A stretch of DNA of 20,594 nucleotides from a virus, in the IMG/VR virus record IMGVR_UViG_3300036766_001086, positions 1 through 20,594 of that record; one strand, 5' to 3'. The position numbers were made by a program, and so were the translations under genes. Below the pieces are notes generated by a model that saw only the letters and a program-made list of their open reading frames with translations, did not search any database and had not been told where the DNA came from. Below are positions 2,804 to 18,582 of this stretch, piece after piece; positions within the stretch are counted from its first letter, which is position 1; every line of letters starts with the position of its first letter.

Positions 2804-3402
2804 GACTCCGACCTGGCGGCGTAGTCGTCGTCAACTGGAAGCTCGCCCTACGGATGTGGAACGGCGACGCCACTATCACCGCCATTGGTCGCGCAATCGG
2901 GCGGACGCCTAACGCGGTACTCATGCACTCGCGGACGCACGGCTGGCCGAAGAAGGTCCGCAGGTCCGGGGCACCATGTCTCGCGAGTAGGGATGAGTAC
3001 GCGGCCGCCGAAGCGGCATGGGATGCTGGCCGGCCAGCGAGGGAAGTGGCGACGATCGTGCAGATGCGATCACTCGGCAACCTCTATCGGTACGCGAAGC
3101 TGCACTGGAAGCCGCGGTCGCCTCCGGCCCAGGCTGCCCCGAGGCTGGCCCCGACCCCGCGCGAGGCGCCTGCCCCCCTACCATCTGAGATCGTCAGCCA
3201 GGCGCTGCCCCGGGCGCAGCCTGCCCCATCCATGCGGGTCGCGGCGCCCATCGTCCGCGCCCGACAAGGTCCAGCAATGGCGACGCGCTCCGGCAGGCGC
3301 CCGCGCCCGACGCCGTATCGTTGCACCGTCTGCTACTGCGCCACGCCTACCAACCCTTGCAACGGCTGCGGCGCGCCCGTGCGGCTGGCCATGCAAGCCT
3401 AA
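2800..3402 (+). CDS. Putative DNA-binding protein: HTH-like N-terminus, C-terminal zinc ribbon
   Basis: The start is ATG 2800 in an ATGA overlap with the DUF5131 gene, giving 200 residues; a much longer frame upstream lies inside that gene and is discarded. Residues 8-45 (NWKLALRMWNGDATITAIGR then TPNAVLMHSRTHGW) resemble a GcrA-like or homeodomain-like helix-turn-helix. A second possible helical repeat follows at about 66-105 (EAAWDAGRPAREVATIVQM). A Pro- and Ala-rich linker leads to a Cys cluster at 175, 178, 180, 187 and 190 (CTVCYCATPTNPCNGCG). The layout suggests a phage DNA-binding regulator, but this is inference. Confidence 0.55.
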   Translation: MRLRPGGVVVVNWKLALRMWNGDATITAIGRAIGRTPNAVLMHSRTHGWPKKVRRSGAPCLASRDEYAAAEAAWDAGRPAREVATIVQMRSLGNLYRYAKLHWKPRSPPAQAAPRLAPTPREAPAPLPSEIVSQALPRAQPAPSMRVAAPIVRARQGPAMATRSGRRPRPTPYRCTVCYCATPTNPCNGCGAPVRLAMQA

Positions 3403-3416
3403 GCTATGGAGGTACG

Positions 3417-4034
3417 ATGACCGACCGAACGGACGAGGGTATGCCTACCGCCCTAACGGTGCCAGATGAGCAGGACAAGCTCATTGAAACGCTGTTCGGA
3501 ACGCCGGCAGCAGAGGCGACGGAAGCGGAAGTGGTCGCCTATGTTGACGCGCTGCTGGGCGCGCTCGGCGAGCTTGAGCAGGAACTATCGTCGCTCAGCG
3601 CCGCGACGCGGCACGCGGTCAAGAGGGTCACGGATCGTTATGCGGAAGTAGCACATCCGTTGCACGAGCGGGCGCAGCGGCTGAACGCGGAGATTCAGCG
3701 GGCGGCGATGATGCTGGGTCGCTCCGAGAAGAAGAAAAGCCGCACGCTGCCGTCCGGCACGGTGGGCTGGCGGCTCCACCCGGATACGCTCAGCATCGAC
3801 GATCCCGAGAAGTGCTTGCACTGGATACGCGACAAGGGTCTGGCGGGTGAGGTCCTAGAGGTGCGGACGACGGAGCACCTGAAGGCCAACGCGATCAAGG
3901 CGCACATCAAGGCCACAGGCGAAGTGCCTGACGGCTGCACGTTCACGGCAGGCGAAGATGAGTTCTATGCCAAGCCGCGGGCAGTGGAGATGCCAAGGCT
4001 CGGATCGGCGCGGACGCAGGAGCTTGCGCCATGA
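3417..4034 (+). CDS. gam: Mu Gam-like host-nuclease inhibitor
   Basis: ATG 3417 has GGAGG at 3408-3412, which decides it over an upstream in-frame start inside the previous gene. The 205-residue product matches the Mu Gam family: a long N-terminal helical region (about residues 20-105, ELEQELSSLSAATRHAVKRV) and a C-terminal part with TLPSGTVGWRLHPDTLSI, then an internal helix ending HLKANAIKAHIKATGEVP and DGCTFTAGEDEFYAKP. Mu Gam is a dimeric, Ku-like protein that binds DNA ends and blocks exonucleases such as RecBCD. Here it probably shields phage DNA ends during infection. Length is close to Mu Gam (about 174 residues), with an extra N-terminus. It overlaps the next gene by ATGA. Confidence 0.8.
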   Translation: MTDRTDEGMPTALTVPDEQDKLIETLFGTPAAEATEAEVVAYVDALLGALGELEQELSSLSAATRHAVKRVTDRYAEVAHPLHERAQRLNAEIQRAAMMLGRSEKKKSRTLPSGTVGWRLHPDTLSIDDPEKCLHWIRDKGLAGEVLEVRTTEHLKANAIKAHIKATGEVPDGCTFTAGEDEFYAKPRAVEMPRLGSARTQELAP

Positions 4035-6131: not shown

Positions 6132-6634
6132 ACGGATTGTCGCCGACCTGTGCGCCGCCCGTCTGCGGCGATTGTGGATCGGGGATGCGCTTCATCCCGC
6201 GCTCCCGATACGGCCCCTTCTGGGGCTGCACCCGCTTTCCTGAGTGCTCCGGCACCATCGGCGCGCATGCTGCGACGGGAAAACCATTAGGTATCCCGGC
6301 CGACGCTGAGACGAGGCAGTTGCGCCGCGAGCTGCATGACATCTTTGATAAGCTATGGGAGCGCGGAGAGCACCACCGCCGGAGCCGTCATCGCGCATAC
6401 CGCTGGCTCGCTGCGCAGCTCGGCATGGCAGTCGAAGCCTGTCACGTCGGGAGCTTCGACGCCGATACGTGCGCTCGCGCGATCGCGCTGTGCGTTGCCA
6501 GAATGAGCCGCACTGACGCGGAAGATCGGGAGCGGGACCAAGGGCCGCCGCCTGACCTGACGCCGCTGACGCCGGAGCTTGAAGCGAAGTTCAAAGCGCA
6601 TGCGGAGCAGCGTCCTAAAAAGATCACGGCTTGA
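6128..6634 (+). CDS. Topoisomerase-type zinc finger with DUF3268-like C-terminus
   Basis: GTG 6128 overlaps the previous stop (GTGA) and gives 168 residues. Cys13, Cys16, Cys34 and Cys40 (CGDCGSGM, GCTRFPECSGTIG) match the C4 zinc finger found at the end of bacterial topoisomerase I. Residues 65-122 match the zinc-finger-containing domain DUF3268: LRRELHDIFDKLWERG, HRAYRWLAAQLGM and CHVGSFDADTCARAIALC. This combination is common among small phage proteins whose function is unproven; single-strand DNA binding is plausible from the topoisomerase finger. Confidence 0.65.
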   Translation: MNGLSPTCAPPVCGDCGSGMRFIPRSRYGPFWGCTRFPECSGTIGAHAATGKPLGIPADAETRQLRRELHDIFDKLWERGEHHRRSRHRAYRWLAAQLGMAVEACHVGSFDADTCARAIALCVARMSRTDAEDRERDQGPPPDLTPLTPELEAKFKAHAEQRPKKITA

Positions 6635-7170
6635 CGTTGGACCGTCGCATCGCCTACTCTCCTGACGTGCCAGCCAAGCGGATCCGCTTCCTCGCCATCG
6701 ACTCCGACCTCACCGCGTCAGGTTTCCTGCTGTGCTCCATCGCGGGCGACGGACGAGTCAACGTCGTCCGCGCCGAGACGGTCAGGCGGCGGCCGATGGA
6801 GGAGTTGGCCGCAAGGCGCAAGGCGATCGGCGAAGCCGCAAGGCAGTGGGCGAAACGCGCGGGACGCGAGGGTCATGCGGTCGTGAACCAGGACCACGGC
6901 GGATTGATCCGTCGCGGACTTCTGAGCACGCTCAGCGCCAAGAAGATCGTAACCGTCAGGGGCGTCACGTGGTTTCAGAAGCTGAGCGTGGCGGCGACGC
7001 AGAGTCGTCGTGGTACGATCGCTGCTTATGGACGCGGCCTGCTCGCGGCGGCGATCAAGACCGGCAAGTGGAACGCAGTTTTGAGCGAGCAGCTGTGCGT
7101 GGCGGCGGCGCTCGCCGAATGGTGGACCCGCAATCGCATCATACACCCTTTTCCGGAGAAGACATCGTGA
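6631..7170 (+). CDS. Putative RuvC-like / RNase H-fold protein (179 aa)
   Basis: TTG 6631 overlaps the previous stop (TTGA); GTG 6667 is an alternative start just before the conserved part. Residues 18-34 (IRFLAIDSDLTASGFLL) look like the first strands of RuvC resolvases, with Asp24 as the candidate metal ligand. The usual second acidic position falls in AVVNQDH (83-89), where Asp88 may substitute for Glu, and a C-terminal helix (SEQLCVAAALAEWW) sits where RuvC proteins carry the last acidic pair. If correct it would cut branched phage DNA before packaging. The match is weak and the catalytic set is not canonical. It is coupled to queD by GTGA. Confidence 0.4.
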   Translation: MTLDRRIAYSPDVPAKRIRFLAIDSDLTASGFLLCSIAGDGRVNVVRAETVRRRPMEELAARRKAIGEAARQWAKRAGREGHAVVNQDHGGLIRRGLLSTLSAKKIVTVRGVTWFQKLSVAATQSRRGTIAAYGRGLLAAAIKTGKWNAVLSEQLCVAAALAEWWTRNRIIHPFPEKTS

Positions 7171-7613
7171 GAGTGATGCTTCGACGGCACATCGACGCCG
7201 CGCACCAGCTCCCGTACCACACCGGCAAATGCCGCCGCCTGCACGGCCATCGGTTCACGATCGACGTCACGATCAGCGGCGAGCCGCAGGCCGATTCGCC
7301 GAACAATCCTGAAAGCGGGATGCTGGTGGACTTCGGTCGGGTCAAGGTGGTCATTGATGCAGTTCTGCCGGATCATCTCAGCCTCAACCGGGTCGGCCAC
7401 GACGGCGTCCTGGGCACCGCGGCGTGCCTTGCGCTCACGACTCCCGACATAGGTTCGCGATGGTACTACGCGATGGATAACCCCACTGCGGAGCGACTGG
7501 CCAAAGTGCTCTACGATGTTCTGGCGCCTCAGATCGCAGAGCTCGTCTTGGGTATCGCTGTCACCGAAGTCACGGTATGGGAAACACCCGACGCGTGCGC
7601 CAGCTATCCGTGA
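7167..7613 (+). CDS. queD: 6-carboxy-5,6,7,8-tetrahydropterin synthase QueD
   Basis: QueD converts 7,8-dihydroneopterin triphosphate, the FolE product, to 6-carboxytetrahydropterin. GTG 7167 overlaps the previous stop and has GGAGAA six bases upstream; ATG 7176 is an alternative. The 148-residue protein shows zinc ligands His13, His26 and His28 (AAHQLPY; CRRLHGHRF) and catalytic Cys22. Other family landmarks are MLVDFGRVK, LPDHLSLN, NPTAERLA and the C-terminal TVWETPDA. There is a small insertion around residues 88-106 relative to the short bacterial enzymes, which are near 120 residues. It heads the preQ0 cassette and is followed by queE in a GTGA overlap. All key residues are present. Confidence 0.93.
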   Translation: MRVMLRRHIDAAHQLPYHTGKCRRLHGHRFTIDVTISGEPQADSPNNPESGMLVDFGRVKVVIDAVLPDHLSLNRVGHDGVLGTAACLALTTPDIGSRWYYAMDNPTAERLAKVLYDVLAPQIAELVLGIAVTEVTVWETPDACASYP

Positions 7614-8242
7614 GCAGCGAAGCGGTGGTGCGTGAAGTGTTCTACGCGGTGCAGGGCGAGGGCGGCCGCGCAGGCGAGGCCAGCGTCTTCGTGCGCTTCG
7701 CCGGCTGCAATCTCGATTGCTGGTTTTGCGATACCGACTGGCAGCATGGCGACCGCCTAACCCTCGACGCGCTTATCGACCTGGTACGCGCTGCACATGC
7801 GCCTGCTCCGCCTGGATGGGTCGTCCTCACCGGGGGAGAGCCCACTGTTGCGCCATCGTTCGACGAGCTGGTGCGCCGGCTGAAAGAGCTCGCCTACCGT
7901 GTCCAGGTCGAGACGAACGGCACGCGGTGGCGTGACGGGCTGGACTGGTGCTACGTGACCGTGAGCCCGAAGGGCCAATGGGAAGGGGAGAAGGCAGCGG
8001 TAGATCCCCGCGTCGCAGCGGCTGCGGCTGAGTGGAAGTATGTTGTCGAAGATGGCGACGCGCTGCCTCAGCCTCCAATCGTGCGGCGGGCGAACGACAG
8101 CACTCCGCGGCTCCCGCCACGCTTGTTCGTCCAACCTCGTTACGACTCGCGGCTAGCGTGGCAGTGGGCATTCAACCTGGTGCGAGCGAATCCGGCCTGG
8201 CGATTGAGTTTGCAGACCCACAAGTGGATCGGCTGCCGGTGA
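7610..8242 (+). CDS. queE: 7-carboxy-7-deazaguanine synthase QueE (radical SAM)
   Basis: QueE uses S-adenosylmethionine and a 4Fe-4S cluster to contract 6-carboxytetrahydropterin to 7-carboxy-7-deazaguanine. The start is GTG 7610, overlapping the queD stop (GTGA), rather than ATG 7577 inside queD. The 210-residue product has the family's opening [19 protein letters not shown], the radical SAM motif [12 protein letters not shown] (Cys33, Cys37, Cys40), [20 protein letters not shown] and the terminal [10 protein letters not shown]. It is the expected length for QueE. It is coupled to folE by GTGA. No key residue is missing. Confidence 0.94.
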
Positions 8243-8862
8243 CCTATCCGTCGTGGGATGCCTCGCGCGCGATTACCGCGCGCACCGCGTCAGGCATCGA
8301 CGCCCGCGCGGCCGAGTCCGCCGTGCTCATGCTCCTCCATGCGTTAGGCGAGGACCCGAGCCGCGAAGGATTGAAGGAGACACCTGCGAGGGTCGCGCGA
8401 GCCTGGGCTGAGCTGACTGCGGGCGCACGCGAGGATCCACGGAAGCACCTCGAGCGCTGCTTCGATCTGCCGGAAGCTACTGGGATCATCGTCCAGCGCG
8501 ACATCCCCTTCTATTCGTTGTGCGAGCACCACTTATTGCCTTTCCATGGCAGGGCGTCCATCGCCTACATTCCGAACGTGATTCAGCGACGCGTCGTCGG
8601 ACTGAGCAAGCTGGTGCGCCTGGTGCGCGGGTATGCGGCGCGACTCCAAGTGCAGGAACGACTCACCGCACAGATCGCCGAGGCGTTAGTCGGTCAGCCG
8701 CTTGAAGCGAGCGGCGTAGCAGTGGTCGTGCGCGCCGAGCACCTGTGCATCGGCATGCGCGGGATCAAGGCGCCCGGCAGCGTGACAGTGACGAGTGAAG
8801 TGCGCGGCCTATTCTTCGACGACGCCAGGGCACGAGCGGAAGTGACGGAGCTGCTGCGGTGA
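8239..8862 (+). CDS. folE: GTP cyclohydrolase I FolE
   Basis: FolE opens GTP to 7,8-dihydroneopterin triphosphate, the first step toward preQ0. GTG 8239 overlaps the queE stop (GTGA) and gives 207 residues; a longer frame from 8032 lies inside queE and is rejected. Zinc ligands are Cys95, His98 and Cys170 ([22 protein letters not shown]). Other type I landmarks are [24 protein letters not shown] and [16 protein letters not shown], and the end [14 protein letters not shown] phage-borne copy would raise the pterin supply for deazaguanine synthesis without relying on host folE. It overlaps the next gene by GTGA. Confidence 0.94.
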
Positions 8863-9203
8863 GATTTCCCCTTCGTACAACGGCGACCACCGAAGCGAAT
8901 TTCTACCGGATGCTCCGTGACGATGCCAGGCGTGCGGTATGGGTCCACGTGCGGAGCGATGAGCAGCTTCACCGGTACAGGCTTTTGGCAAGACGTGCCG
9001 GCTGGCAGGTTGTCGCCGGCACCGCACAGTACTTCGTGGTCGCGGTTCGTCGCTGGCTGCGCCCTGCCGACCGCAACGCGCTGAGACGCGCGGCTCGACC
9101 CTACCTCGTGAGGGCAACGGTGCGCCGCCTGGGCGCGTTGTTCGGTTACCCCGACAAGGAGATAGCATGGTACCTCAAGGCGAGCGAGCCGTCGCGGTCC
9201 TGA
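8859..9203 (+). CDS. Unknown protein inside the preQ0 cassette (114 aa)
   Basis: GTG 8859 overlaps the folE stop (GTGA), and the 3' end overlaps queC by 37 bases. The 114-residue product is basic and rich in Arg, Trp and Tyr. It has two beta-like stretches around residues 27-50 ([16 protein letters not shown], then [16 protein letters not shown]) and a helical C-terminal half ending [16 protein letters not shown]. No cysteine pairs, membrane segment or known motif are seen, and I recognise no family. Its place between folE and queC makes a role in deazaguanine synthesis, transport of the base to DNA or regulation worth testing, but that is inference from position only. Confidence 0.65.
9156..9161 (+). 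promoter_or_regulatory. Ribosome binding site for queC inside the upstream gene
   Basis: AAGGAG sits five bases before ATG 9167, within the coding sequence of the 114-residue gene. It supports the queC start even though the two genes overlap by 37 bases, more than the 4-base overlaps used elsewhere in the cassette. Confidence 0.6.
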
Positions 9204-9835
9204 GTGGTGGGCAGGATTCTACTACCTGCTTGTACTGGGCACTGCGGCAGTTCGAGGAGGTGCGAGCAATCAGTTTCGACTACGGCCAGCGTCACGCATC
9301 CGAACTTGAGGCGGCAGGGCAGATCGCGAGACGCGCGGGCGTCGTGCATAGCATAGCGTCGATTCCATTTCTCGCGGAACTGCGAACAAGCGCACTGACG
9401 AACCGTGCACTCAGCGTCGCGGAGCTGGGTTACTTGGGACTGCCGGCGACGTTCACGCCAGGACGCAACTTGATCTTCCTCACCCAAGCTGCCGCCTACG
9501 CGTTCTCTGTGGGGGCTCACCATCTCGTGACCGGTGTTTGTCAGACCGACTTCTCCGGTTACCCCGACTGTCGTCGCGCGACGATCGACGCGCTGCAACA
9601 GGCGCTCGCACTCGGCATGGAGTGGCCACTGCACATTCACACGCCAGTGATGTACCTAACGAAAGCGCAGAGCGTGACCCTGGCACGTGGCATGAAGGGG
9701 TGCTGGGAAGCGTTGGCGCTCACAGTGACGTGCTATCTTGGCCAACGGCCGGGCTGCGGCACATGTCCTGCGTGCGTAATCCGGGCGCGCGGCTTCGAGG
9801 AAGCTGGCTTTCCGGATCCAGCGACAAACCCGTAA
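9167..9835 (+). CDS. queC: 7-cyano-7-deazaguanine (preQ0) synthase QueC
   Basis: QueC uses ATP and ammonia to turn 7-carboxy-7-deazaguanine into preQ0. ATG 9167 is preceded by AAGGAG. The 222-residue protein has the PP-loop SGGQDST (13-19), DYGQRH, the PGRNLIFL motif, FSGYPDCR, and the zinc site Cys189, Cys197, Cys200 and Cys203 (GCGTCPACVIRARGF). Length fits a plain QueC with no fused glutamine-amidotransferase domain, so I expect a free preQ0 product rather than the amidated G+ base. A six-base gap separates it from the dpdA homologue. Confidence 0.94.
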   Translation: MVPQGERAVAVLSGGQDSTTCLYWALRQFEEVRAISFDYGQRHASELEAAGQIARRAGVVHSIASIPFLAELRTSALTNRALSVAELGYLGLPATFTPGRNLIFLTQAAAYAFSVGAHHLVTGVCQTDFSGYPDCRRATIDALQQALALGMEWPLHIHTPVMYLTKAQSVTLARGMKGCWEALALTVTCYLGQRPGCGTCPACVIRARGFEEAGFPDPATNP

Positions 9836-9841
9836 GCGCGG

Positions 9842-11137
9842 ATGTGGATTCACTGCGCGGAGTTCAGCAGCGAGCGAGGCCAATACTGCTCGCTGGCGAA
9901 AGCCTTCCACACCGCGACGCTGATGAGCTATGCGGGGCGCAGCGTCGAGCGATACTTCGCCGCCCTGTGGGGATTTCAGACGCTCACACACCTAGCGTGC
10001 TTCGACGACTCCACCGTGCCGTATCGAGCGATGACCCGCGAGCGGGTGGTCGGTGGGCTGTTCTCGTTCGTGTCCCGCAATCACCACGGGCGGGTCGCAG
10101 GGTGGGAAGATCACTGGAAAGCCTTGAGCGCGGTGGTAGAGGAGTGGCGGATGCGGGTGCATTTGGCGGGGCGCGGCCCAGGACTCAAGCTTTACCAGGA
10201 CGCTCAGCGTCGAGAAGGCGAGAGTCAGGGGCTAGTGAGTTTCGCGTACCAGCAGGACGAGGCGGACCACGGCGCGACTTGGGACGAGCACAGTAAGAAT
10301 GCCAACGCGGTGAGAGCGCACCTGGTATCGTGGCCCAAGCAGGACGCGCAGGCGGCGTCGCTGAAAGCCGAGAAGCCGGAGAACCACCTGCTGTCGTATA
10401 TCAACTCCGATCACGAGGGCGGATACCGCCAAGTCTGGCGCGATCTCAGGCCCCGCGTGATTGTGGACTCTGGCGCCTTCACTGCCTGGAGCACCGGTGC
10501 AGCGATCAAACTGGAAGACTACGTAACGTGGGCGACCGGCTTTCGCGAGCGGTGGGCGCACAAGATGGGGAGCCTTGTTTTCCTCACCCTGGACGTGATC
10601 GGCGACCAAGCGGCGACGTGGCGGAACACCACGCGCATCAAGCGACTGGGATTGGACGTCATTCCAGTGGTGACGTTCGGTGCCGATCTCAAGCACCTGG
10701 ACCGTGCGCTCGCTGCGCCGTACTTCGCGCTCGGTGGCCTGGTGCCCTACCTCAAGAGCTCGCAGCGGAAACGACTCGAATGGTGGCTCGACCTGTGCTT
10801 CGCACGCGTGATGCGGCACCGGGATAAGACGGGCGTGATGCCGCGGGTGCATCTGTTAGGCGTCACCACGAAGTGGGTGGTGGACCGCTATCCAGCGTAC
10901 ACGACGGACAGCAGCTCGTGGGTGTCGCCGCTGCGGTTCGGGCTGGGCGACGCTGCGAAGATCGGCCGGCTACCGCGCCTGAAGGGTACCGCCCCGGACG
11001 CGCCGGAGCGTAGCGTGCTCGTTCATGCACTGCGGCACGAAATTAGAAAAGTGATCTTCATGCAGGACAATGCGACGGCGCTATGGCGCCATCGGGGAGT
11101 GACGTTCGATGAAGAAGAAGCAAGCGACGCCCGCTAG
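9842..11137 (+). CDS. dpdA: DpdA-like DNA deazaguanine transglycosylase with N-terminal extension
   Basis: DpdA proteins are paralogues of tRNA-guanine transglycosylase that exchange guanine in DNA for 7-deazaguanine bases. Residues about 180-400 match the phage DpdA/TGT-like core: VIVDSGAFTAWSTG with Asp209, FLTLDVIGD with Asp251, PVVTFGAD, YFALGGLVP (the TGT GG motif) and VHLLGVTTKWVVDRYPAY followed by TTDSSSWVSPLRFG with His337 and Asp356. The TGT zinc site of the tRNA enzymes is not evident. Residues 1-179 are an additional region that I do not recognise. Context is decisive: it directly follows queC and the other preQ0 genes. The stop overlaps the ParB-like gene by 29 bases. Substrate preQ0 in phage DNA is inferred. 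Confidence 0.86.
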   Translation: MWIHCAEFSSERGQYCSLAKAFHTATLMSYAGRSVERYFAALWGFQTLTHLACFDDSTVPYRAMTRERVVGGLFSFVSRNHHGRVAGWEDHWKALSAVVEEWRMRVHLAGRGPGLKLYQDAQRREGESQGLVSFAYQQDEADHGATWDEHSKNANAVRAHLVSWPKQDAQAASLKAEKPENHLLSYINSDHEGGYRQVWRDLRPRVIVDSGAFTAWSTGAAIKLEDYVTWATGFRERWAHKMGSLVFLTLDVIGDQAATWRNTTRIKRLGLDVIPVVTFGADLKHLDRALAAPYFALGGLVPYLKSSQRKRLEWWLDLCFARVMRHRDKTGVMPRVHLLGVTTKWVVDRYPAYTTDSSSWVSPLRFGLGDAAKIGRLPRLKGTAPDAPERSVLVHALRHEIRKVIFMQDNATALWRHRGVTFDEEEASDAR

Positions 11138-11798
11138 GGCGCCCACCAAGAGTGCGCTGCGGACGGTTCGGCTCGACGCACGGGTCGTGCCGATAGCGCA
11201 GCTTGAGGCCAACCCCTGGAACGTGAACGCGTTGTCGCAGCGAGAATTCGAGGCGGCGCGTGAGAGCATCCGGTTGTCGGGGTTCGTGGACCCGGTGACA
11301 GTGCGAGCGCACCCGAAGAAGAAGGATCGGTGGCAGATCCTAGACGGTGAGCATCGGTGGCGGGCCGCGAAAGAGGAGAGCTGGACAACCATCAGTATCA
11401 ACGTGCTAGACATCCCCGACGACTCGGCGGCCCGTAAGTTGACGCTCCAGTTGAACATCCACGGAGAGGCCGACCGCTTGCGGCTCGCGCAAGAGCTGGC
11501 ACTGTTGCAGCAGGCGCTCGGTGCCCGAACTGGCGAAGGACTGCCGTGGAGCGAGTCTGAGATTGAGGAGTTGCTGGCCCTGGCGAAAACAGCGATGCCG
11601 GAGTACGCCGAAGGCGGAGCGGGCGAGCCGGAGCACGCCGGCTTTACGACCTTCACTTTCCACGTGCCCGAGGACGCGGCCAAGGTGGTTGAAGAAGCGG
11701 TGGTGCGGGCGATGAAGGAAGGCGAGAGCGAGAACCGCGGTGTCGCGCTGGAACGCATCTGTGCCGACTACTTGGCCAGCGCGGAGGTGGCATCGTGA
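11109..11798 (+). CDS. ParB/sulfiredoxin-domain protein
   Basis: ATG 11109 lies inside the end of dpdA, giving 229 residues. Residues 20-115 are a ParB N-terminal type nuclease/CTPase fold: VVPIAQLEANPWNVN, SIRLSGFVDPVTVRAH, and WQILDGEHRWRAA at about 75-87, where GEHR is the family signature. Residues 118-160 are helical, and a C-terminal section (FTTFTFHVPEDAAKVVEEAV to ICADYLAS) resembles the tail seen in phage ParB-like proteins near terminases. Such proteins bind or nick DNA, or use nucleotides, and their phage role is mostly unproven. Overlap with dpdA suggests co-expression with the DNA modification genes. It is coupled to the next gene by GTGA. Confidence 0.8.
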   Translation: MKKKQATPARAPTKSALRTVRLDARVVPIAQLEANPWNVNALSQREFEAARESIRLSGFVDPVTVRAHPKKKDRWQILDGEHRWRAAKEESWTTISINVLDIPDDSAARKLTLQLNIHGEADRLRLAQELALLQQALGARTGEGLPWSESEIEELLALAKTAMPEYAEGGAGEPEHAGFTTFTFHVPEDAAKVVEEAVVRAMKEGESENRGVALERICADYLASAEVAS

Positions 11799-13368: not shown

Positions 13369-13601
13369 TGATGCCGACGCCGACGCGATGCCCCGTCGCC
13401 AAGTGCGGCCGGAAGATGCGCCTTGGACGTCTGCTGTGTGACCGCTGCTGGCGCCAGGTGTCCCGCGAGCCGCAGGGCCGCGTGCTCCGGCGCTACTTCG
13501 CCCGGGTCGAGCACGACGTCATCCAGGGCGACCGCCAGCCCGGCGATCCAGAGCCAGTCGGCATCCTCAATGCGGCAGCTGCCGAGGAAGCCAACGGGTG
13601 A
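13368..13601 (+). CDS. Small zinc-binding phage protein (77 aa)
   Basis: ATG 13368 shares its A with the DUF4031 stop (TAATG); a second ATG follows at once. Cys8, Cys13, Cys24 and Cys27 (RCPVAKCGRKM, LLCDRCWRQVSRE) form a zinc-ribbon-like set. The CxxCWRxV pattern is recurrent in small phage proteins of unknown function. It ends in a GTGA overlap with the large terminase gene, so it is translated just before terminase. Confidence 0.6.
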   Translation: MMPTPTRCPVAKCGRKMRLGRLLCDRCWRQVSREPQGRVLRRYFARVEHDVIQGDRQPGDPEPVGILNAAAAEEANG

Positions 13602-16162
13602 GGGTTTCAGCAGTTGAGCGCTTCATCGAGACGCTGGCAGGCGCCATCGACCCGGAGGCGGCAGCGCTTGCGGCAGGCATCGAAGCGCCGTGGGTGCCGA
13701 CCACCGACGATGAGCTGCACCGCTGGCTGATTGAGTTCTTCGGCATCATGATTCCGCGCATCGCCGTCTGCCGTGGCCACTGTGCGCCCTTCCAGGCGCT
13801 CGCTGATGCGTACTTCGCCCGCCACTCTCGCACGGTATGGAAGGCCAGCCGCGGCTTCGGCGGCAAGACGATCATGCTGGCGGCGTTATCGCTCGTGGAG
13901 GCGATCACGCTCAAGGCCCTAGTGAACCTGCTCGGAGGATCCGGCCAGCAGAGCGAGCGCGTCCACAAGTACATGCAGGGCGGCGATACGATGGCGGGCC
14001 GTTTTTGGGCGCACCCGCAGGCACCGACCCAACTGCTGCTGACGGACCCGACGCGCCGCGAGACGCGGCTCGTGGGTGGCGGCGGAATCAACGCGCTCAT
14101 GGCGAGCGCGACGTCTATCCGCGGGCCGCACCCGCAACGGCTGCGCGGTGACGAGATTGATGAGATGGACGCGGAGCTGTGGGATGCCGCTCAGGGCCAG
14201 CCGATGGAAGCGCTCGGCGTGCGGGAGCAGGTTGTGGGATCGAGCACGCACCACCACGCAGATGGTACGATGACCCGCGAGCTGCGCGTAGCGGCCGAGA
14301 AAGGTTGGCCAGTCTACGAATGGTCCCTACCCGGCGATGCCCTAGTGGCCGATGCGGCGGGCGTGCCGCGGCCCGTCGTGGACTACGGGGTCGGGGACCG
14401 GGTGCTCGGGGCGGAGGGCCGTGCGGTCGCGGTGTCGGCGACACCGCGCCACCTCAACCTGGAAGCGGCGCTCGTGTCGGTGCGCGTGGCCGGGTTGCCA
14501 GACCCCCTGGTGTGTACGCCGGCGCACCGCATCCTCACGCCGACGGGCTGGCGGCGCGCGGGGGAGCTGGCGGTCGGGGACGAGCTCTACGAGCCAGCGT
14601 CCCCACTGGAGCCGGGCGGCGCCTACGATGACGGCTGGCTCGTCGGCCTCTACGTGGCCGAGGGTTGGCGCGTCGGCACGCGCGCTGTCTGCTTCGCGGT
14701 CCACGAACGCGAGGCGCCGGCGATCGCGGCACGGCTTGGGGCCTGGGGTGTCACGCCGCGCACGCACGCCACTTCACCGCCCAGCCATGGCCGGCGGATT
14801 GAGGTGCATGGTATGCGGCTCCGCGCGCTGGTGGATGCCTGGGTCGCGGGCGGATCGAGCCAGAGCAAGGCGCTGCGCCGGCTCCCCACCGCCCGCGCCT
14901 TCGCCGCCGGCCTGCTGGATGGCTGGCTCGCCGGGGACGGCTGGACCGCCCGGCGGGCGCGGGTAGGCCAGACCGCGAGCGTGGCGCTGGCCTGTCAGAT
15001 GCTGCGGGTCGGCGGATCCCTCGGCTTCGCCTGCGCGCTCTCCCGCAACCTCAACCGGCCGGGGCCAGCGGGCCGGGAGCGCGGCACCCCCGGCGCCCCG
15101 TTCTGGCGCCTGTCCGTCGCCGGGTTCAGTTCCCCGCTCCGCCACGTCAACCGCGCGCGCGCCGTGGAGGCGGCGCGGCAGCGCGCTGCGGGCGCGACAG
15201 TGAGTGTCCTGGCGCGCGAGTTCGGCGTCAAGCGCGATACCGTGCGACGCTGGCTCCGCGGCCCGGCCGCGCACCACCACCACCAACCGCGCCCCGACAC
15301 TGGCGGCGTCTGGCGCCGGGTTCTGGGTGTGACGCGGCGCGCACATGCCGGCGTGGTCTATGACCTGACGGTACCGGATGGCCAGGCGTTCATCGCGGCC
15401 GGCGTGCTGGTGCATAACTGTTGGAAGGAGACGACCGCGCAGCCGTTCGGCTTCATCACTCTGGATCAGGTGGCACGTAAGCGGTCGGTCGTCACTGACG
15501 TGCAGTGGCAGACCGAGTACGATCTACAAGAGCCGTCCGTGGAGAATGTGGCGATCGACGCGGACTCCGTCGAGCGCGCGTTCTCACCGGCCATCGGCAC
15601 GCATACCGGCCAGCTCGGCCAGGTGATCGAGCTCGAGGCGCCGGACCCCGAAGGGGAGTACGCGGTCGGCGCGGACTGGGGCAAGCTGCGCGACAAGACG
15701 ATCATATGGGTGAACCGCACCGACGTGCGGCCGGTGCGTCTGGTCGCGTTCGCGCACCTGGCGAAGATGCCGTACCCTACGATGGTGGAGCGGTTCGAGC
15801 GATGGGTGAAGCACTACAAAGGCCAGCGCGAGCAGGCGCGCGCCGCCTACGATCACGGCGGGCCGGGCGTCGTGCTCGAGGATTACCTGACGGTGAAGGC
15901 GACGCCGATAGACCTCGTCGGCATCACGCGGTCGGAGCTGTTCCGCAACTGGATCGTAGTGATCGAGAGCGGCCAGTTTCTTGCGCCGCGCGTGACATAT
16001 GCTTATCGTGAGCACCGGTACTGCACGCAGGGTGACCTCGCGGGCGTCGGCCACCCGCCGGATTCGTTCATCGCCGCCGCGCTGGCATGGCTCGCGGGCA
16101 CGCAGATGGATGACCCGCGGACCATTCCGTGGTTCCCTGGCATGAAGGAGGCCAAACGCTGA
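13598..16162 (+). CDS. terL: Large terminase subunit, interrupted by an intein
   Basis: TerL is the ATP-driven packaging motor and nuclease. GTG 13598 overlaps the previous stop and encodes 854 residues, 489 after removing a 365-residue intein (residues 243-607). The ATPase part shows a Walker A-like KASRGFGGKT (82-91), Walker B LRGDEIDEMD (182-191) with Asp185 and Glu186, and a motif III candidate VVGSSTH (212-218). The C-terminal RNase H-like nuclease has candidate metal ligands Asp693 (AVGADWG), Asp752 (AYDHGG) and Asp822 (HPPDSFIAAALAW). The joined exteins read VYEW-CWKETT, as in uninterrupted terminases. Splicing must occur for a working motor. The stop overlaps the portal gene start. 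Confidence 0.9.
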   Translation: MRVSAVERFIETLAGAIDPEAAALAAGIEAPWVPTTDDELHRWLIEFFGIMIPRIAVCRGHCAPFQALADAYFARHSRTVWKASRGFGGKTIMLAALSLVEAITLKALVNLLGGSGQQSERVHKYMQGGDTMAGRFWAHPQAPTQLLLTDPTRRETRLVGGGGINALMASATSIRGPHPQRLRGDEIDEMDAELWDAAQGQPMEALGVREQVVGSSTHHHADGTMTRELRVAAEKGWPVYEWSLPGDALVADAAGVPRPVVDYGVGDRVLGAEGRAVAVSATPRHLNLEAALVSVRVAGLPDPLVCTPAHRILTPTGWRRAGELAVGDELYEPASPLEPGGAYDDGWLVGLYVAEGWRVGTRAVCFAVHEREAPAIAARLGAWGVTPRTHATSPPSHGRRIEVHGMRLRALVDAWVAGGSSQSKALRRLPTARAFAAGLLDGWLAGDGWTARRARVGQTASVALACQMLRVGGSLGFACALSRNLNRPGPAGRERGTPGAPFWRLSVAGFSSPLRHVNRARAVEAARQRAAGATVSVLAREFGVKRDTVRRWLRGPAAHHHHQPRPDTGGVWRRVLGVTRRAHAGVVYDLTVPDGQAFIAAGVLVHNCWKETTAQPFGFITLDQVARKRSVVTDVQWQTEYDLQEPSVENVAIDADSVERAFSPAIGTHTGQLGQVIELEAPDPEGEYAVGADWGKLRDKTIIWVNRTDVRPVRLVAFAHLAKMPYPTMVERFERWVKHYKGQREQARAAYDHGGPGVVLEDYLTVKATPIDLVGITRSELFRNWIVVIESGQFLAPRVTYAYREHRYCTQGDLAGVGHPPDSFIAAALAWLAGTQMDDPRTIPWFPGMKEAKR
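14324..15418 (+). mobile_element. Intein with LAGLIDADG homing endonuclease, in terL
   Basis: The intein covers terL residues 243-607. Block A is SLPGDALV, so the first nucleophile is Ser rather than Cys. Block B is CTPAHRILTP, with the TxxH motif at 307-310. Block F is VYDLTVPDGQAFIAAG, and block G is VLVHN followed by Cys608 of the C-extein. Two LAGLIDADG-type motifs lie between: WLVGLYVAEGW (about 347-357) and GLLDGWLAGDGW (about 438-449), so a homing endonuclease is likely, and both end in an acidic residue. A helix-turn-helix-like segment, VLAREFGVKRDTVRRWLRG, sits at about 536-554. Base composition looks higher in GC than the flanks: 14881-14940 has 11 A/T of 60, while 15541-15600 has 19. 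Confidence 0.9.
16146..16151 (+). promoter_or_regulatory. Ribosome binding site that points to a CTG start for the portal gene
   Basis: AGGAGG lies in the end of terL, seven bases before CTG 16159. That CTG overlaps the terL stop as CTGA, in the same geometry as the ATGA, GTGA and TTGA junctions elsewhere. No ATG, GTG or TTG occurs in frame between CTG 16159 and ATG 16324, and the alternative GTG 16129 has no visible binding site. Confidence 0.6.
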
Positions 16163-18582
16163 ACAAGGCCCTGTCTGCCCGCCTTAGCCGGCTACGCCTC
16201 CCCGCGTGGCTCGGCGGTGCCTCCCCGGCGCCGGCTCCCAACGGCAGCAAGAGCGAGAACGAAACCGGCGTCTTCTTCGCCAACCCCATCGACATCCGTC
16301 AGGCGATCGGCAGCGGCACCGGCATGCAGGCGCGGGATGCTGAGCGGCTGACACGCGCCACCGCGTTCGTTACGTCTGCCTACTGCTTCATCGCCATGCG
16401 CTGGCGCGCGTCGCGCGTCGCGGAGCCGCCGCTCATGGTCGTGCAGGAGACGCAGGACGGTGAGGAGTGGCAGCCGGATCATCCCTTGGCCGAGCTGTTC
16501 GACGCGCCGCGGCCTGACCTGGACATGGGCGAGCTGTTGCACCGCAAGCAGCTGTACCAGGACCTGACTGGCGCCGCGCTGCTGGTGGTGGACCGCGACA
16601 TCAGCGGGCGCTCGCGGATCCTGACGCCCTTCAGCGGCGACGAGTTCCAGACGGACCCCGCCGGCGGGCTCATCTACGGTCGCTACTCGGTGATCGGTGC
16701 GTCAGGCGGGTGGAAGGACTTGGACCTGGCGGCGACGCCGGTCATCCACTTCCGCGACCCCAACCCGTACAGTTGGCGTGAGCAGTTCAGCCTGGTCGAC
16801 GCCGCGATGTTGCAGCTCGACCTCGGGCACACCGTGCGGCGCATCGTCCGCAACTATCTGAGCAATGCGATCTTCCCCGGCGGCATCCTCAGCACGCACC
16901 CGGACTGGAAGCCGACGCCCGCTGAGTGGGACTTATGGAAGTCAGCCGTCAAGCAGTGGCATGGCGGGCCGGCTAATGCAGGAGAGCCGCTTGCGGTGCC
17001 CGGCGGCACAGTGTTCAGTAAGACCGCGAGCGCGATGAAGGACCTGCTGCCCGACGACGTGCTCGACCGCGTTGAGGCAACGGTCGCGTCCACCTTCGGC
17101 ATCTCGCCGGTGACGTTAGGCTGGCTCACCGGCCTCCAGAACAGTCCGTGGTCGCAGATGGCCGAGTCGCGCCGCAAGGATTACGAGGACACGGTGCAGC
17201 CGATTTGGCGCGACATCGAACGCCGGTTCTCGCGCACGCTGCTGACGCCCGAAGAGCGGCGCGCCGGCTTCATCGTGCGGTTCGACACTCGCCAGGTCGT
17301 GGCGCTGCAAGAGGACCAAGAGGTGCGGTCGCGGATCAGCCTAGCCAACCGCGACACGTGGACGGTGGACGAGCGGCGCATCTACACCGGCCAGGACGCC
17401 CTCGACCCGAGCGACCCGCGCGGCAGCATGATCGTGGGGATCGACGTCAAGGCGGCAGCGCCCCCGCCGGGCAGCGCCGGGCAGCCGGTGCCTGCGGCGC
17501 CCAAGGTCGAAGTGCAGGCGCTGGTGTTCCCGAAGGCGCACTGGGCGACTGCCGCCGCGTGCGCGGGCTGGGCGATGGGTCGCGGCTTCCGAGCGGTGAA
17601 GGCGAGCGAGACGGCGGACGCGTACCACCTGCGCGTCCGCGCGCCCGACGCTTTCGACGGCGCGACGCTGCGCACGGTTTCGCTGCTCGGCGCCCGGCGT
17701 CCAGGTGACGAGCGGTGCAGGGTGTCGGCCGTGGTGGGTCGGCCGAAGTCGGCGAAGCTGATCCGCCTGCCGTTTGACCGGACGCCCCGCGTGCGCGCGG
17801 CGGATATCGAGACGATCGACGAGCGGACCTTGGCCTGGCTCGACTTCGACATCCAGACGAAGGCGGCCGAGTCCACCTGGGAGCGCGAGGTCGCCGGCGT
17901 CTTGGCATCCATCCGCCGCAAGGTCGTGGCGCTCGCGGGCCATCTGCTGCAGGACGATGGCAAGGCTGTGGATCCCCACAGCGCGACCGAGTTCACGCAC
18001 GCGCTGCATGGGACGCTGAACGACGCGCGCCATGCGCTCCAGAGCACGACCTACCCGCTGGTGCTCAGCACAGGCAAGGAAGCGGTCGGGCGGATCGCGG
18101 CCCGGCACAATCTGAGCTTCGGCGTGCTGGAGCCCGGCCTGCTCAAGTACGCGAAGGAGGAAGCGGCTTTCCTGAGCGACGTCATGGGCGAAGCGACGGG
18201 GACGGCGGTCGCGGAAGCGGTGCAGGCGGGCCTAGCGGCCGGTGAGACGGTCAGGCAGCTGCGCCAGCGCCTGGAGGAGCTGCCTGCGTTCTCCCGCGAG
18301 CGGGCGCAGCTCGTCGCCCGGACCGAGACGACGCGAGCTTGGAATGGCGCGCAGAGGCGTAGCATGAGTACCTTTGCGCGGGACAGCAACCGCGGCGTCA
18401 CCAAGTCCTGGCTTTCTGCTCGCGACGACCGCGTGCGCGAGGAGCACGATGCGTTGGACGACGGCACCGAGATCGGCATAGACGACGCGTTCGCCAACGG
18501 CCTCACCGAGCCGGGAGAACCGAACTGTAGGTGTAGCCTGACGTATCAGGTGGCGCCGCCGGTAGGCGCCGAGGAGGATTGA
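16159..18582 (+). CDS. Portal protein fused to Mu gpF-like head morphogenesis domain
   Basis: The preferred start is CTG 16159 (807 residues); GTG 16129 would add ten. Residues about 30-440 match phage portal proteins, which form the dodecameric DNA gate: TSAYCFIAMRWRASRVAEPP, LFDAPRPDLDMGELL, LAATPVIHFRDPNPY, FGISPVTLGWLTG and NSPWSQMAESRRKDYEDTV. A Pro- and Ala-rich linker leads to residues about 450-520, a small domain (VQALVFPKAHWATAAACAGW to YHLRVRAPDAF) that I know as a recurrent phage module of unknown role. Residues about 715-795 are a Mu gpF-like domain: ARTETTRAWNGAQRRSM, SWLSARDDRVREEHDALDDG, and EPGEPNCRCSLTYQV. Portal and gpF are usually separate genes, so this is a fusion. It sits directly before the protease. 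Confidence 0.85.
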   Translation: MNKALSARLSRLRLPAWLGGASPAPAPNGSKSENETGVFFANPIDIRQAIGSGTGMQARDAERLTRATAFVTSAYCFIAMRWRASRVAEPPLMVVQETQDGEEWQPDHPLAELFDAPRPDLDMGELLHRKQLYQDLTGAALLVVDRDISGRSRILTPFSGDEFQTDPAGGLIYGRYSVIGASGGWKDLDLAATPVIHFRDPNPYSWREQFSLVDAAMLQLDLGHTVRRIVRNYLSNAIFPGGILSTHPDWKPTPAEWDLWKSAVKQWHGGPANAGEPLAVPGGTVFSKTASAMKDLLPDDVLDRVEATVASTFGISPVTLGWLTGLQNSPWSQMAESRRKDYEDTVQPIWRDIERRFSRTLLTPEERRAGFIVRFDTRQVVALQEDQEVRSRISLANRDTWTVDERRIYTGQDALDPSDPRGSMIVGIDVKAAAPPPGSAGQPVPAAPKVEVQALVFPKAHWATAAACAGWAMGRGFRAVKASETADAYHLRVRAPDAFDGATLRTVSLLGARRPGDERCRVSAVVGRPKSAKLIRLPFDRTPRVRAADIETIDERTLAWLDFDIQTKAAESTWEREVAGVLASIRRKVVALAGHLLQDDGKAVDPHSATEFTHALHGTLNDARHALQSTTYPLVLSTGKEAVGRIAARHNLSFGVLEPGLLKYAKEEAAFLSDVMGEATGTAVAEAVQAGLAAGETVRQLRQRLEELPAFSRERAQLVARTETTRAWNGAQRRSMSTFARDSNRGVTKSWLSARDDRVREEHDALDDGTEIGIDDAFANGLTEPGEPNCRCSLTYQVAPPVGAEED

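Follow-up and report, generated by a model that had tools for sequence, protein, structure and literature searches.

A viral preQ0 synthesis cassette with a repeat-extended DpdA and its predicted role in DNA modification

The stretch of DNA analysed here (the window) is the IMG/VR virus record IMGVR_UViG_3300036766_001086 from an uncultivated virus. It comprises 20,594 bp with a G+C content of 67%, is classed as linear and is probably a fragment. The window encodes enzymes for the synthesis of 7-cyano-7-deazaguanine (preQ0) together with a homologue of the phage protein DpdA, in the gene order queD-queE-folE-orphan-queC-dpdA-parB, the cassette from queD to dpdA occupying positions 7167-11137. 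Pfam and PHROG scans bear out a first-pass annotation of the same sequence with regard to the identity, order and coordinates of the five named cassette genes. That annotation did not include the orphan frame, the repeat-extended N terminus of DpdA or the ParB-like gene that overlaps dpdA. Since the orphan frame sits between folE and queC, the four pathway genes are not strictly adjacent.

7167..7613, + strand: queD, 6-carboxytetrahydropterin synthase; GTG start overlapping the preceding stop codon; PF01242, E 3.6e-25
7610..8242, + strand: queE, 7-carboxy-7-deazaguanine synthase; PHROG QueE, E 1.3e-31; solved QueE, E 2.4e-16
8239..8862, + strand: folE, GTP cyclohydrolase I; start codon GTG, which overlaps the stop codon of queE; PF01227, E 3.1e-65; solved enzyme, E 1.5e-55
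8859..9203, + strand: orphan frame of 114 amino acids between folE and queC; coding-like codon-position G+C
9167..9835, + strand: queC, preQ0 synthase; PF06508, E 2.7e-69; solved QueC, E 2e-60
9842..11137, + strand: dpdA; PHROG phage DpdA; four tandem N-terminal units ahead of the core (residues about 200-425)
11109..11798, + strand: ParB-N-like gene; PF02195, E 1.2e-11; overlaps the 3' end of dpdA

Because the genes overlap or almost touch, the arrangement is consistent with a single operon. GTG/TGA overlaps are found at 7167, 7610, 8239 and 8859, and only the six bases already noticed in the first-pass annotation separate the end of queC (9835) from the start of dpdA (9842). Codon-position G+C is coding-like across the whole cassette. 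For queE, the GTG at 7610, which overlaps the queD stop codon, is the likelier start when compared with the ATG at 7577 that opens the longest frame. The catalytic and metal-binding residues of the four pathway enzymes had been described as intact, and alignments to solved structures confirm this. QueD retains KCRRLHGH, DH and VWET with the catalytic cysteine and the zinc-site histidines, QueE retains CX3CX2C and GGEP, FolE retains CEHH and HLC, and QueC retains SGGQDS and the C-terminal cysteine cluster. A family scan also gave a radical S-adenosylmethionine match for QueE (E 7.7e-14), and no Gat domain is present in QueC. With folE in the cassette, the virus itself encodes the FolE step of the pathway from GTP to preQ0, as previously proposed. 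The product of the orphan frame has no relative in Pfam, PHROG, phage records or IMG/VR (the last searched by peptide-pattern scan). The frame occupies the site at which related loci carry stand-alone DpdA-like units and bears no resemblance to these units. Neither tRNA genes nor matches to RNA families were detected in the window.

The catalytic core of DpdA is recognized by the PHROG family "queuine tRNA-ribosyltransferase" (phage DpdA) with an E-value of 9.4e-31, the match being confined to residues 160-425. D209, D251 and D356 are conserved, and the active-site residues are kept across 77 aligned sequences. The Pfam family of tRNA-guanine transglycosylases (TGT) gave no match up to E 0.1. 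TGT enzymes carry the zinc motif CxCxxC; it is absent from the window protein, which has four cysteines in total. H337 of the window aligns with H196 of the phage 9g enzyme, where this residue falls in KVHGFG. A histidine equivalent to H196 is a marker of 9g-type DpdA and is absent from DpdA2 (PMC6884629); by this criterion the window DpdA is of the 9g type. A sequence search against solved structures yielded no match and a fold search was used in its place. AlphaFold modelled the core barrel with a predicted local distance difference test score (pLDDT) of 90-98. In Foldseek the best match in the PDB is the archaeosine TGT 1j2b, and the best viral fold matches include phage proteins annotated as queuine transferase.

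The window DpdA is about 120 residues longer than the enzymes of CAjan or 9g. The additional length arises because the N-terminal unit that precedes the catalytic DSGAF motif is present four times. Each unit spans 45-55 residues with the pattern xIHLa...hLfSYAY...W and corresponds to the stretch ahead of DSGAF in canonical DpdA. The limits of units 2 and 4 in the following list are approximate.

9842..9985, + strand: DpdA unit 1 (residues about 1-48); begins with ATG; 22-24 bits against a profile built without the window
9986..10150, + strand: DpdA unit 2 (about 49-103); weakest of the four copies; boundary at CTC, which is not a start codon; z 7.9 against the units of relatives
10151..10309, + strand: DpdA unit 3 (about 104-156); ATG with AGGAG six bases upstream; 15-17 bits against the profile
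10310..10450, + strand: DpdA unit 4 (about 157-203); boundary codon GTG; leads into RPRVIVDSGAF; z 9.6 against the units of relatives

Residues 1-204 reached 50.2 bits with the profile built without the window, compared with at most 11.5 bits in 2,000 shuffled sequences. Compared with the units of relatives, each of the four units scored 7.9-13.8 standard deviations above its own shuffles. In pairwise comparisons of unit 2 with units 3 and 4, the score was reached by no more than one of 500 shuffles. Of the 20 inner unit boundaries in the repeat-type genes, 18 carry a start codon (ATG, GTG or TTG), and valine at a boundary is encoded by GTG in seven of eight cases as opposed to 31% of the valine codons in the same genes; the boundaries were placed by eye and are not independent, since the sequences are related. 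Start codons in these positions agree with an origin by duplication of the dpdA 5' end and would permit nested starts, with ATG 10151 as a possible internal start in the window.

A search of 50,697 isolate-phage records with the extension returned nothing at E-values up to 1, and a four-unit N terminus is absent from all isolate-phage DpdA proteins that were aligned, each of which has a single beta-alpha-beta-alpha unit. "Canonical length" is used descriptively for the single-unit enzymes compared here and follows no published criterion. A weak match of the extension (E 0.0011) lies at the N terminus of the DpdA from Mufasa8. The extension was also compared with the hypothetical gene that precedes dpdA in PaMx25, and an equivalence of the two was rejected. 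Across ten viral records measuring up to 148 kb, the repeated units are confined to the dpd cluster. No account of such repeats or of phase-variable phage DpdA was found in the literature covered, most subscription journals being outside its scope, and the repeat-extended enzyme is apparently an undescribed branch of DpdA.

In a tree calculated from the core alone, 13 repeat-type sequences including that of the window form one branch with 100/98 support. The clade stems from 16 IMG/VR contigs, some of them near-duplicates, and from one contig of the cyanobacterium Chlorogloeopsis fritschii PCC 6912 (L138). The IMG/VR relatives were found via QueC and alignment queries, and a peptide-pattern scan with DpdA alone returned none. 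The number of units ranges from one to four, L127 having a single recognisable unit and L049 a truncated first copy; each of these two loci contains two tandem dpdA genes. Genes of the preQ0 pathway are linked to dpdA in most clade members, and a ParB-like gene follows dpdA wherever downstream sequence is available, with the exception of L048, in which ParB-like genes lie upstream. Neither folE nor a recognised queD was seen between queE and queC of L040, L043 and L044; a divergent QueD may be encoded there by a frame with the C-terminal sequence VWETENRC. Among 293 genomes searched, Chlorogloeopsis is the sole carrier of its repeat-type dpdA. Vertical inheritance in cyanobacteria is therefore unsupported and, as the gene is missing from the 292 other genomes of its relatives, repeat-type DpdA is probably mobile in this lineage. 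Beside dpdA in L138 lies a DUF6884 gene (9073-9480) whose product weakly resembles DpdC (E 9e-5), and homologues of it occur near dpdA in L046 and L049. This gene suggests 2'-deoxy-7-amido-7-deazaguanosine (dADG) as the product in these three loci.

The closest precedents for the window among characterised systems are the group-2 cassettes of Escherichia phage CAjan and Mycobacterium phage Rosebush, with which it shares the DpdA catalytic residues and the equivalent of H196. Both phages encode FolE, QueD, QueE, QueC and DpdA without an amidotransferase and carry 2'-deoxy-preQ0 (dPreQ0) in their DNA, where it accounts for about 32% of G in CAjan and 28% in Rosebush; deletion of dpdA abolishes the modification in CAjan (PMC6884629). 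Unlike the CAjan enzyme, to which it is 26% identical, the window DpdA has the N-terminal unit four times, and its gene order differs. Quesadilla (Bclasvirinae, L004) and Mufasa8 (L005) resemble the window in that dpdA adjoins a ParB-like gene and the preQ0 set is complete, and Quesadilla also has its terminase near the cassette. Both differ from it by a single N-terminal unit and another gene order, and the Quesadilla DpdA falls outside the repeat-type clade. With the other clade members, such as L041, L044, L047 and L138, the window shares the repeated units, the mostly conserved order queC-dpdA-parB and 40-49% identity. In contrast to some of them it lacks homopolymer-interrupted stand-alone units and a DpdC-like gene, and its G+C content is far higher. 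The bacterial DpdA-DpdB-DpdC systems likewise combine a TGT-like DpdA that places preQ0 in DNA with a ParB-like partner, DpdB (PMC12839542). The window resembles them in its TGT-like DpdA, which is predicted to act likewise, and in its ParB-like gene, and differs in that no DpdC was found.

While the genes, catalytic residues, repeats, clade membership and neighbours can be read directly from the sequence, the chemistry, the DNA target and a role against restriction are proposed on the model of the characterised relatives. On this basis it is very probable that the cassette makes preQ0 and that DpdA swaps it into the viral DNA, part of which would then contain dPreQ0. FolE followed by QueD, QueE and QueC would provide the virus with its own route from GTP to preQ0. 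DpdA would exchange guanine in viral DNA for preQ0 by swapping bases in the manner of TGT. By analogy with that enzyme, D356 would serve as the nucleophile and D209 would act at the base. The ParB-like partner would probably assist the action of DpdA on DNA, and carrying part of the genome as dPreQ0 would lower the sensitivity to host restriction. Homology to the CAjan and Rosebush gene set thus favours the DNA hypermodification put forward in the first-pass annotation; its statement that phages of this kind replace guanine has to be narrowed, as the known ones replace only part of it.

Several observations weigh against this interpretation. The DpdA core is only 25-30% identical to the enzymes of isolate phages, including the tested ones from 9g and CAjan, Foldseek matched the solved DpdA structure 7ui4 weakly (E 8.9e-3), and residues 1-100 are predicted with low confidence by AlphaFold. 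The ParB-like protein matches no DpdB model in PADLOC, where it gave a weak methyltransferase match only. Finally, an additional step could be encoded in a part of the genome beyond the fragment.

In the favoured explanation, the extension arose when the 5' end of dpdA, encoding the beta-alpha-beta-alpha unit before DSGAF, was duplicated in tandem. As a guess at their role, the extra copies would probably enlarge or tune a surface that binds DNA or a partner. Regarding this role alone, it is quite conceivable, at somewhat less than even chances, that the repeats are neutral leftovers of slippage and recombination at the start of dpdA and have no effect. The varying unit number among relatives and the stand-alone copies, which are often frame-broken, would fit such an origin. 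On the other hand, the units are divergent and yet the frame has stayed open in most members, the IHL...SYAY...W pattern is kept, and start codons recur at the inner boundaries.

As to the final base, the foremost prediction is dPreQ0 as opposed to a derivative, short of certainty because the window is a 20.6-kb fragment. It is possible, albeit rather unlikely, that the DNA is modified and that a gene outside the fragment, or the host, converts the base to dADG, 2'-deoxyarchaeosine (dG+) or 2'-deoxy-preQ1 (dPreQ1). The DpdC-like genes in L138, L046 and L049 as well as a QueF-like gene beside dpdA in Mycobacterium phage Funsized speak for this alternative. Against this, no gene for QueF, an amidotransferase or a DpdC-like protein was found within the 20.6 kb by the Pfam scan of the main frames and the DUF6884 protein search, and CAjan and Rosebush with their minimal set stop at dPreQ0.

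It is improbable that DpdA has diverged in function or is inactive, so that preQ0 is made and not put into DNA. The identity of 25-26% to the tested enzymes and the long inserted region leave room for such a divergence, and Orion, a phage with a singleton DpdA, showed no modification (PMC6884629), but the active site is conserved in the aligned sequences and the preQ0 pathway accompanies dpdA in most clade members. Hardly credible is a role of the cassette in queuosine-type tRNA modification with the DpdA-like protein as tRNA transglycosylase: fold and catalytic aspartate are common to DpdA and TGT and the top PDB fold match is a tRNA enzyme, but the DpdA-type histidine, the missing Pfam TGT match, the lack of CxCxxC and the lack of tRNA genes in the window speak against it, and an E. 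coli tgt mutant was not complemented by dpdA of 9g (PMC6884629).

In some relatives, G6-G10 or C8-C9 runs occur in the stand-alone units that precede queC. L041 and L137 have these units in frame, whereas they are out of frame in L042, L047, L040 and L049, and L137 has a G10 run in its first dpdA unit. L120 and L124, which are the same contigs as L040 and L043, are 97.9% identical over 6.9 kb. An aligned stretch of about 2.8 kb contains five differences, three of which are changes in the length of G or C runs (G7/G8, C9/C8); all three fall within units and one disrupts dpdA unit 1 in L124. Phase variation by homopolymer slippage is a reasonable reading for these relatives, assembly or sequencing error or simple decay being possible alternatives. 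The window contains no long homopolymer, only a single C6 run that lies outside the cassette at 3173. The variable runs are therefore an observation on the clade and not part of the finding for the window. As a doubtful extension of these data, the units could be functional, with nested starts yielding DpdA forms of one to four units. Slippage in the stand-alone units or in dpdA of relatives would then turn forms on or off and render the modification heterogeneous within a population, and the window would represent a member without a switching tract.

The five-gene cassette belongs to a known type, and exchange for altered guanine is a known means by which phages evade bacterial DNA-cutting defences; the novelty lies in the repeat-extended DpdA. 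It points to a new uncultivated branch of DNA-guanine transglycosylases, possibly linked to cyanobacterial viruses, and to an unusual enlargement of an enzyme in which the first strand-helix-strand-helix unit of the barrel is repeated. If the units tune the site or extent of modification, they would shed light on the site choice of DpdA. If slippage switches units in the relatives, the phages themselves would encode a variable DNA modification, comparable to phase-variable methylation in bacteria.

Upstream of the cassette, the window contains a DUF5131 gene (2036-2803) and a gene for a Mu Gam-like end-protection protein (3351-4034; PF07352, E 1.1e-15). The frame at 6631-7170 gave a weak hint of RuvC (a search of two sequences, with RuvC of Quesadilla, gave E 0.011), which is not claimed here. 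Downstream, a portal protein fused to a MuF-like domain (16129-18582) has no close isolate-phage relative. An intein (Intein_splicing, E 1.3e-9), which contains a helix-turn-helix domain as well, splits the large frame at 13598-16162, terminase-like by position and motifs. A similar intein-like insert apparently splits folE in L049 (3141-4823).

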